In this document: positions 30,155 to 34,132 of the stretch, in pieces
Numbering within the stretch: the first letter of the stretch is position 1
Layout: the number at the start of each line of letters is the position of its first letter
Assembly: GCA_025361645.1 (NCBI GenBank)
Contig: JANYKI010000029.1
Span: 1-34,708 of the forward strand
DNA: 34,708 bases
Origin: Methanothrix sp.
GTDB lineage: Archaea > Halobacteriota > Methanosarcinia > Methanotrichales > Methanotrichaceae
Direction: 5' to 3'
The notes under the pieces: model-generated
Databases searched by the model: none
Told to the model about the DNA's origin: nothing
Seen by the model: only the letters and a program-made list of their open reading frames with translations
Made by a program: the position numbers and the translations under genes

Positions 30155-30583
30155 TCAATCGAAGCTTATCACCGCCCCGAGGTCGTCTCTCGGAATCATC
30201 CACCCCGATTTCAGGCGTCTCGCCTTCAGCCTCTTCAGCGACGCAATCAGTCTTTCCTGCGCTCCTGCCACCGTCCCATCGTCCTGCAACACCTGGCCTT
30301 CCAGCAGCGCATCCACCACGAATGCCGTCTTTGCTATGACCATGTCTTCCAGCTCTTCCGGTGTCATCCAGATATCCTGAATGCGAGAGGGCTTTGGGAA
30401 GGGCGGCAGCACATCTCTTCTCTTCAGCTCCGGAAGGCCTGAAGCCACGATGATGAGGTCTACATCGCTGTGCTCCTTTGCCTGGCCTCGAGCCACAGAG
30501 CCGAAGAGGATCACACTCTTAACATCATATTCTTTGCATTCTTTCAGCCTGACAAGATAGCTCTCGATCATCTCTTCAAACAT
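30155..30583 (-). CDS. MNT-type nucleotidyltransferase, MntA-like antitoxin
   Basis: The minimal nucleotidyltransferase motif is complete: LFGSVARG (G28-S29...G33) followed by SDVDL with D40 and D42 as metal ligands. The 142-residue product is of the type paired with HEPN toxins; in the HepT/MntA system the enzyme adds AMP units to the HEPN toxin and silences it. The start codon lies inside the end of the HEPN gene (16-base overlap) with a GGAGAGG site upstream, so the two are one operon in toxin-antitoxin order. A C-terminal basic stretch (RLKARRLKSGWMIPRDD) is additional. The assignment to MntA is by family and context. Confidence 0.85.
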   Translation of the reverse strand: MFEEMIESYLVRLKECKEYDVKSVILFGSVARGQAKEHSDVDLIIVASGLPELKRRDVLPPFPKPSRIQDIWMTPEELEDMVIAKTAFVVDALLEGQVLQDDGTVAGAQERLIASLKRLKARRLKSGWMIPRDDLGAVISFD

Positions 30584-31074
30584 TGCTCTATCCTCTCCAG
30601 GACTTCATCCAACTCCTCCGCGCCAAGCGTCGCGAAAAAGCCCAGAGCTGCTGCTAAAACAGTCTCCGATCTGCCCATTATCTCCCTTGCCTTCTCCTCA
30701 TCATAAATCTCCGAAGGTTTGATAATTCTATCTCTGGTCTCCCATCCGTATCGGGGCATGCTTCGCTGTTTTTCGATAGATGCAGCATTATCTGCCATGG
30801 CCAGCAGAAATCCTATTTGATCTCTGGATAGACTCAAGTCTCGCGTTGTCTCTGGATTATTCAGTATTTCCCCTACAAGCACGTCCGATGGAAAATGCGT
30901 CTTTTCGTGAAAGATTCCAAAAAAATACAGAACCGATTTCAATAGCTTTTCTGCACATTGCTGAGCATGAAAAACGCTGCTTGGATATCTCTCGTCGCTA
31001 AAGTCTGCAATGGCATCCTTCATATCATCTATTGCCATCTCTATCCAGTCCTTGGTTTTCTGGATGTTCTTCAT
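30568..31074 (-). CDS. HEPN-domain protein, HepT-like toxin
   Basis: The four-helix HEPN pattern is seen in DWIEMAIDDMKDAIADF, YPSSVFHAQQCAEKLLKSVL and the C-terminal RYGWETRDRIIKPSEIYDEE with KAREIMGRSETVLAAA. Many HEPN proteins are RNases, but this type has no clear R-x4-6-H active site, so toxicity is not guaranteed. The 168-residue protein is encoded first, ahead of the nucleotidyltransferase that overlaps its end. The pair lies between the decayed and the intact copies of the cbiP start and is transcribed against cbiP. It may be a toxin-antitoxin module or a relic of a defence island. Confidence 0.85.
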   Translation of the reverse strand: MKNIQKTKDWIEMAIDDMKDAIADFSDERYPSSVFHAQQCAEKLLKSVLYFFGIFHEKTHFPSDVLVGEILNNPETTRDLSLSRDQIGFLLAMADNAASIEKQRSMPRYGWETRDRIIKPSEIYDEEKAREIMGRSETVLAAALGFFATLGAEELDEVLERIEQCLKR

Positions 31075-32818: not shown

Positions 32819-34132
32819 ATGAAACTGGGCGTGCTCTTCTCAGGCGGCAAGGACTCGGCCTTTGCCTGCCGCCTGGCCATGGAAAAGAACCAGGTAGCCT
32901 GCCTGATTACTCTGGTCTCGGAGAACCCGGACAGCTACATGTTCCACACGCCCAACATTCGCCACACCGACCTGCAAGCGAAGGCTATGGACATTCCCCT
33001 GCTCACCTGGCCCACGAACGGCATCAAAGAGGAGGAGCTGGCGGACCTGGCGGCGGCCATTGCCGCCGCCCGGGAGAGATATGCCGTTCGTGGAATCGTC
33101 ACCGGAGCCATTGAGTCCGTCTACCAGGCGGCGCGTGTACAGAGGATCTGTCGCGACCAGGATCTTTGGTGCTATAATCCCCTCTGGCAGACAAATCAGA
33201 TCGATTACCTCCGCAGACTTTTAAAGGAAAACTTTTCCATCATCATCTCCGGAGTCTATGCCTATCCCTTTGATGCCTCCTGGTTGGGCGCAGAGTTGAC
33301 GGAAGAGCACATACAAATTCTGGAGCGTCTATCGCAAAAATACAAGATTAATCCCTCAGGCGAAGGCGGGGAACTGGAGACCTTCGTCCTGGACGGTCCC
33401 CTTTTCCAGAAGAGAATCGAGATCATGAAGGCATCCCAGAGCTATGCCAACTATCGGGGGCAGTTTGTCATAGAAGAGATGCAACTGGTGGGGAAACCGG
33501 GGAAGGCAATGAGTCAGGAAATGGACGGGAAAATTCCGTACGAAGAACAAAATCCAACGGAGATGATGCATAAGAGGTCGTGCATCCTCTTGGTTGACCT
33601 GTGCTATGAAAAAGACTCCTTATCCCAGTACGAATTTGTCCACCCCATTAGAGATACGCTGCAAAAATTGGGCTTTCTCTGCAATATTTTGCATTATATC
33701 GAGGTCAAGCCGCTGGATCTTGCCAACCACGATAAAATTATCCTCTGCGGAACGGCCCTGATGGACAATGTTTATGCCGGGCATTTAGAGCTCTTCTCCT
33801 GGATAAAGGATTTCAAAAAGCCCATTTTAGGAATCTGCGCAGGCATGCAGGTCATCAGCGCCGTTTATGGCGGATCGATAGTGCCAAATCAAGCAATCGG
33901 CCTGGAAGAGATAGATGTCGTCATGGATTCATCGCTGCTGGGCGAGCCGCGGCAGATAGAAGGCTATCACCTTCATAACTATGCAGTGACATTGCCGGAG
34001 AGATTATCGCTTCTGGCCGGAAGAATTGATGCAATCGAGGCTTTCAGGCACCGCACCCATCCCACTTACGGTATTATATTTCATCCTGAAGTGCGAAACC
34101 GCTGGATATTGGAGCGTTTTGCCAATCTCTAA
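32819..34132 (+). CDS. dph6: diphthine--ammonia ligase fused to a class I glutamine amidotransferase
   Basis: Residues 1-225 are a Dph6/MJ0570-type ATP pyrophosphatase: the PP-loop LFSGGKDSAFA (S8-G-G-K-D-S13), SENPDSYMFHTPN, VTGAIESVYQAARVQ and the hallmark SGEGGELETFVLDGP (residues 180-194). This enzyme makes diphthamide from diphthine on elongation factor 2, normally with free ammonia. After a short linker (225-253), residues 254-437 form a class I glutamine amidotransferase: C340 in PILGICAGMQVIS, and H422 and E424 in GIIFHPEVRN complete the triad. The frame is continuous over 437 codons. Family members usually have only 220-230 residues, so the fusion suggests glutamine as nitrogen source; that is inference. 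Confidence 0.85.
   Translation: MKLGVLFSGGKDSAFACRLAMEKNQVACLITLVSENPDSYMFHTPNIRHTDLQAKAMDIPLLTWPTNGIKEEELADLAAAIAAARERYAVRGIVTGAIESVYQAARVQRICRDQDLWCYNPLWQTNQIDYLRRLLKENFSIIISGVYAYPFDASWLGAELTEEHIQILERLSQKYKINPSGEGGELETFVLDGPLFQKRIEIMKASQSYANYRGQFVIEEMQLVGKPGKAMSQEMDGKIPYEEQNPTEMMHKRSCILLVDLCYEKDSLSQYEFVHPIRDTLQKLGFLCNILHYIEVKPLDLANHDKIILCGTALMDNVYAGHLELFSWIKDFKKPILGICAGMQVISAVYGGSIVPNQAIGLEEIDVVMDSSLLGEPRQIEGYHLHNYAVTLPERLSLLAGRIDAIEAFRHRTHPTYGIIFHPEVRNRWILERFANL

Follow-up and report, generated by a model that had tools for sequence, protein, structure and literature searches.

The fusion gene and its domains

The window, by which we mean the whole stretch of 34,708 nucleotides analyzed here, belongs to a Methanothrix genome of 2.43 Mb that is 97% complete. 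An open reading frame of 437 codons on its forward strand starts with ATG, runs in a single frame without internal stops, and encodes an N-terminal Dph6 domain and a C-terminal class-I glutaminase domain joined by a linker (Table 1). Profile searches revealed that residues 5-221 matched the archaeal Dph6 equivalog TIGR03679 (Dph6_archaeal) over positions 2-218 of 218, with a score of 271.8 bits against a cut-off of 197.3, and residues 1-222 matched PF01902 with 206.5 bits; residues 273-426 matched PF00117 (GATase class I) with 70.5 bits (cut-off 22.8). The unbroken Dph6-amidotransferase frame described in the initial annotation was thus confirmed as one ORF of 437 amino acids with both profiles above their cut-offs.

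A full set of archaeal Dph6 motifs and a Cys340-His422-Glu424 triad had also been reported, and both were borne out by the comparison. In addition to the equivalog score, the Dph6 domain contained the PP-loop motif SGGKDS and kept all nine likely EF-2 contact residues of PF0828 (9/9; list from PMC3541065), and the fusion and PF0828 were identical at 15/15 compared positions, which covered the PP-loop and the EF-2 contacts. The triad residues were present in the motifs GIC340AG and FH422PE424, with the refinement that the oxyanion-strand motif is CGT instead of the GGP of typical class-I domains. The genome contained one other PF01902 match, which was far weaker and below the cut-off, and it encoded an EF-2 with the diphthamide His motif LHEDAVHRG, Dph2, Dph5, a separate GuaAa candidate, and TrpG. 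Elsewhere in the window (30155-31074, reverse strand), overlapping genes for a nucleotidyltransferase (PF01909) and a HEPN protein (PF05168) had the gene composition of an MNT-HEPN toxin-antitoxin module.

Table 1. Features of the Dph6-glutaminase fusion gene, in window coordinates.
Feature	Position	Strand	Basis
Dph6-glutaminase fusion gene, 437 aa plus stop	32819..34132	+	ORF; homologous fused ORFs in 12 further genomes
Dph6 domain, residues 1-222, N-type ATP pyrophosphatase	32819..33484	+	TIGR03679, PF01902, PDB 3RK1/2D13
PP-loop motif SGGKDS, residues 8-13	32840..32857	+	Alignment with SGGKDS 12-17 of PF0828
EF-2 contact/catalytic motif E182-E185-E187 (within GEGGELE)	33362..33379	+	Equivalent to E183/E186/E188 of PF0828, named in PMC3541065
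Interdomain linker, approximately residues 223-254 (about 30 residues)	33485..33580	+	Low pLDDT; dN/dS
Class-I glutaminase domain, residues 255-437	33581..34129	+	PF00117; separate ATGA-overlapping gene in unfused relatives
Family signature EFVxP, residues 272-276, start of helix alpha1	33632..33646	+	Conservation among 95 members
Oxyanion-strand motif CGTxLxD, residues 310-316	33746..33766	+	Conservation among 95 members
Nucleophile Cys340	33836..33838	+	Cys in 76/95 members; Ser/Ala in two lineages
His422 and Glu424 of the triad (H-P-E)	34082..34090	+	H422 in 75/76 Cys-containing members; E424 in 95/95

Distribution and selection of the fusion

A search for the same two-domain architecture among 50 genomes of the family recovered the intact fusion in 13 genomes, all from one Methanothrix-type genus and with sequence identities of 60-100%; in one of them (G017), the Dph6 part was interrupted by Ns. 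Most of the other family genomes contained Dph6 and the glutaminase as neighbouring genes. In the glutaminase tree, the fused sequences formed one clade (SH-aLRT 91) adjoining their unfused relatives, which implies a single fusion event. A search of public genome contigs revealed close relatives (Methanothrix sp., 78-88% identity) and one bacterial DUF71 protein, and nothing else.

Among the fused genes, the median pairwise dN/dS was 0.15 for the Dph6 part and 0.22 for the glutaminase part, and about 1.1 for the linker (residues 227-253), the latter value being based on few pairs. Both fused domains are under purifying selection, and the linker, which varies in length among the fused genomes, drifts freely while the frame is nonetheless kept.

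A two-gene system in unfused relatives

The glutaminase domain alone was used as a query against 393 genomes of the window's phylum, and a family member was found in 72 of them, with six more matching through GuaAa-like hits only. Together, the family search, the 393-genome search and direct fetches supplied the loci for a set of 95 distinct family members. In all 82 distinct unfused loci, the glutaminase gene was located downstream of dph6 on the same strand, and it was the next gene in 81/82, the sole non-adjacent locus (L094) having one ORF between the two. The start of the glutaminase gene overlapped the dph6 stop by exactly four bases (ATGA-type) in 67/82 loci, an arrangement that is the usual sign of coupled translation. 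Adjacency was no selection criterion for most of the unfused loci, which were retrieved using only the glutaminase domain as query. The family was found almost only fused to or adjoining dph6. The 82 loci span Methanotrichaceae, five Methanomicrobiales-like families, Archaeoglobaceae and one more family; we take the families coded f9, f27 and f8 to be Archaeoglobaceae, Methanomicrobiaceae and Methanoculleaceae, respectively, and genome G004 is presumably M. soehngenii GP6.

Several loci deviated from this pattern. One Methanothrix genome (G011, locus L108) kept the gene order cobQ-dph6-HMGL-like with the intervening glutaminase absent, and dph6 can therefore be kept without its glutaminase partner. 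In three Methanotrichaceae genomes (G034, G028 and G036; loci L109, L110 and L111), we found a divergent stand-alone Dph6 of approximately 36% identity and no dph6-linked glutaminase, as if both had been replaced together. A partial glutaminase match in G428 was located approximately 72 kb from dph6 (C1:366701-367381 and 439252-439614), a separation that may reflect rearrangement or assembly. At L099 and L102 (G258 and G140), open frames of 236-286 amino acids were present in which the query match breaks after approximately residue 115 of the domain, which suggests that these dph6-linked glutaminases carry an insertion.

Phylogenetic analysis placed the dph6-linked glutaminases in a clade of their own (SH-aLRT 98), apart from GuaAa (93), although GuaAa is the named family with which they score best and the one that provides the nearest solved structure. 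In the Dph6 tree, the glutaminase-linked Dph6s grouped together, with a single loss inside the group (G011). Two signatures characterize the family. The first, EFVxP, lies where GuaAa has GQ(Y/F)xHLI and was highly conserved (E272 in 95/95, P276 in 94/95), and the second, CGTxLxD, was conserved to a similar extent (G311 and T312 in 95/95, D316 in 94/95). We also observed that Gln344 of GICAGMQ was replaced by Glu in four members with an otherwise intact active site (L054, L078, L079 and L082) and by His in three others.

Predicted structure of the fusion protein

The AlphaFold2 model of the fusion, calculated from an input alignment of 133 sequences from the loci of this study, had a mean pLDDT of 94 and a pTM of 0.91 for both domains together, and its only weak part was the centre of the linker, with a pLDDT of about 52. 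As the two domains are nearly equal in size, this pTM implies a defined relative placement, and the two domains are confidently predicted to be docked. Foldseek comparison of the Dph6 part revealed the P. furiosus and P. horikoshii Dph6 structures (PDB 3RK1 and 2D13) with TM-scores of 0.92-0.95 normalised by target, and the glutaminase part matched GuaAa chains (1WL8, 2D7J and 2A9V being the best solved relatives) with TM-scores of up to 0.79, again normalised by target. None of the 50 Foldseek matches listed covered both domains.

Members lacking the catalytic cysteine

The catalytic Cys was missing in 19/95 family members, which retained the linkage to dph6 and both the EFVxP and CGTxLxD motifs. 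In genus g28 of family f8, Ser replaced Cys in 14/14 members (L053, L056, L058, L060, L061, L063, L064, L066, L067, L073, L075, L076, L081 and L083), and in genus g5 of the window's own family, Ser or Ala replaced Cys in all five sampled members (L048, L050, L051, L055 and L065), in which His422 was lost too. We assume that g28 is a Methanoculleus-like lineage and g5 a thermoacetophila-like one. The two groups formed separate clades with support of 99 and 100 and had dN/dS values of 0.30 and 0.28, respectively, as expected under purifying selection. From their sequences, the Cys-less members are probably pseudo-glutaminases in which the catalytic site was lost twice. Because the nucleophile was lost and the gene still lies beside dph6, glutamine hydrolysis is not the sole reason why the subunit has been kept.

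These members are natural controls with which ammonia supply can be separated from other roles of the subunit, and they bear directly on an alternative in which the glutaminase-like domain serves Dph6 chiefly as a structural or regulatory subunit, acting for example in EF-2 docking or gating, with glutaminase activity being secondary or dispensable. The retention of linkage, signatures and purifying selection in two separate Cys-less lineages speaks for such a role. However, 76/95 members across seven families retain Cys, His and Glu jointly, mostly with Gln344 as well, which docking alone does not require, and the loss of Cys is accompanied by the loss of Gln344 in 19/19 Cys-less members. We therefore consider a mainly structural role unlikely.

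Proposed function in diphthamide synthesis

The fusion is most likely a diphthamide synthetase that depends on glutamine and operates in the manner of GMP synthetase; its use of glutamine, the transfer of ammonia and the identity of the acceptor as diphthine are inferred. The C-terminal glutaminase would hydrolyse glutamine at Cys340 and pass the released ammonia on to the Dph6 domain at the N-terminus. There, the diphthine carboxylate of EF-2 would be activated with ATP as an acyl-adenylate and then amidated. By the logic of GMP synthetase, the glutaminase would probably become active once the ligase site is occupied. Most relatives would make this enzyme from two subunits encoded by translationally coupled genes, and these genes would have become fused in one Methanothrix clade. 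The initial annotation had predicted glutamine-dependent diphthamide synthesis from the dedicated glutaminase, and the comparative evidence, namely the dph6 linkage, the Dph6 clade, the pathway genes and the separate GuaAa and TrpG, strongly supports this prediction. The channelling of ammonia between the domains, which the initial annotation also predicted, is a putative part of the mechanism. Three observations were counted against glutamine dependence: the nucleophile is missing in 19/95 family members whose genes still lie beside dph6, the G011 locus lacks the glutaminase, and yeast Dph6 works with ammonium (PMC5354562).

As GuaAa and TrpG are encoded separately, the fusion glutaminase does not do their jobs, and a GMP-synthase subunit fused to Dph6 by accident was ruled out by the GuaAa cut-off, the tree and the separate GuaAa candidate. 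We also considered that the fusion might amidate something other than diphthine, such as a substrate in cobalamin biosynthesis, given that cobQ lies upstream in the window and in the genus Methanothrix and that DUF71 proteins are not isofunctional, some being thought to act in B12 salvage (PMC3541065). However, this neighbourhood was found in this genus only, whereas the dph6-glutaminase linkage extends outside it, and a B12 role was accordingly not accepted on the basis of cobQ. A B12-type DUF71 protein was ruled out by the profile scores and contact residues, as the fusion passed the Dph6 equivalog cut-off and scored just 57.6 bits with the PAB0415-type model (cut-off 250), and the nine EF-2 contact residues are kept. 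The fusion is also the only strong PF01902 match of a genome in which Dph2 and Dph5 are present, and we regard another substrate as very improbable. Finally, the initial annotation would have been refuted by separate genes in close relatives that a sequencing error had joined here. The genes are indeed separate and overlapping in close relatives, and a minor insertion or deletion might in principle merge them, but a sequencing or assembly artefact can be dismissed with near certainty, since the 13 fused genomes form one clade, are 60-88% identical to the window and differ in linker length, and drift is confined to the linker while selection acts on both domains.

Under glutamine-dependent diphthamide synthesis, the nitrogen source in these archaea is probably glutamine rather than free ammonia. 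Digesters with high ammonia are a known source of Methanoculleus strains (PMC12776343), and it is a guess on our part that free ammonia made the glutaminase dispensable in the Methanoculleus-like lineage. A broader scenario, which we put forward tentatively and without favouring it, is that Dph6 of Methanomicrobia and Archaeoglobi was ancestrally two-subunit and that its GuaAa-related partner became part of an EF-2-amidating machine beyond ammonia supply. On this view, the glutaminase site could be given up in two lineages, which would have gone back to using free ammonia, while the subunit stayed on as a pseudo-glutaminase. With a dedicated class-I glutaminase fused to or beside Dph6 in several archaeal families, the glutamine hypothesis becomes directly testable with one protein, and what makes the system valuable is how widely the pair is conserved, together with the natural Cys-less members, which make the question of the nitrogen source testable.

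Comparison with known systems

Class-I and class-II glutaminases are unrelated in fold and mechanism. The ammonia source of Dph6 has been proposed to vary, and GAT-II/AsnB and RidA fusions have been cited in this respect (PMC3541065, 2012). The GAT-II/AsnB-DUF71 fusions were described in the Methanosarcinaceae Methanohalophilus mahii and Methanosalsum zhilinae (PMC3541065), and in this sister family we found GAT-II and Asn_synthase domains ahead of Dph6 at one locus (L118) and an Asn_synthase domain with a weak GATase_7 match ahead of Dph6 at another (L112). These proteins likewise combine a glutamine-hydrolysing module, the proposed source of NH3, with Dph6 in one chain. In contrast to their arrangement, in which a class-II domain with an N-terminal nucleophile and an extra AsnB PP-loop domain precede Dph6, the window fusion has a class-I triad domain after Dph6 and no second PP-loop; the domain search of the fusion protein (P0001) found neither a class-II glutaminase nor an Asn_synthase domain. 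Two related lineages thus appear to pair one and the same ligase with different, unrelated glutaminases, which suggests that a common need was answered in sister families by glutaminases of two unrelated classes.

The initial annotation had presented the fusion as a variation not known to be described. This holds only in part, as the GAT-II/AsnB-Dph6 fusions have been described and read alike (PMC3541065), and the class-I fusion is a second solution and not the first glutaminase-Dph6 fusion. The class-I partner resembling GuaAa, and the fact that it occurs so widely as a gene of its own, do appear to be undescribed; we found no paper on a class-I partner of Dph6 in the open-access literature, which was the scope of the search.

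Stand-alone archaeal Dph6 proteins (P. furiosus PF0828 and P. horikoshii PH1257) have the same ligase domain and fold (3RK1 and 2D13), but unlike the window fusion, their chains are without a glutaminase domain. Eukaryotic Dph6 has C-terminal RidA (YjgF) domains, which are likewise proposed ammonia suppliers (PMC3541065), although RidA deaminates imines and is not a glutaminase.

GMP synthetase offers a parallel in module pairing, as it combines a class-I glutaminase with an ATP pyrophosphatase of the PP-loop type; in many archaea, the two are separate subunits (PMC10526850). Its pyrophosphatase half alone is able to work with ammonia supplied from outside, and helix alpha1 of its glutaminase is involved in cross-talk (PMC10526850). 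The modules are the same whether GMP synthetase occurs as GuaAa and GuaAb or as a two-domain protein, and GuaAa is the nearest known family of the fusion glutaminase. There are nevertheless clear differences: the fusion glutaminase scored 69.5 bits with the GuaAa equivalog, far under the cut-off of 198, the tree places its family outside the GuaAa clade, and it has EFVxP and CGT where GuaAa has GQ(Y/F)xHLI and GGP. Furthermore, the glutaminase is C-terminal in the window fusion and the proposed acceptor is a protein, unlike in GMP synthetase. This comparison points to a second use, in protein modification, of a combination already known from GMP synthetase, namely a class-I glutaminase working with a PP-loop ligase.
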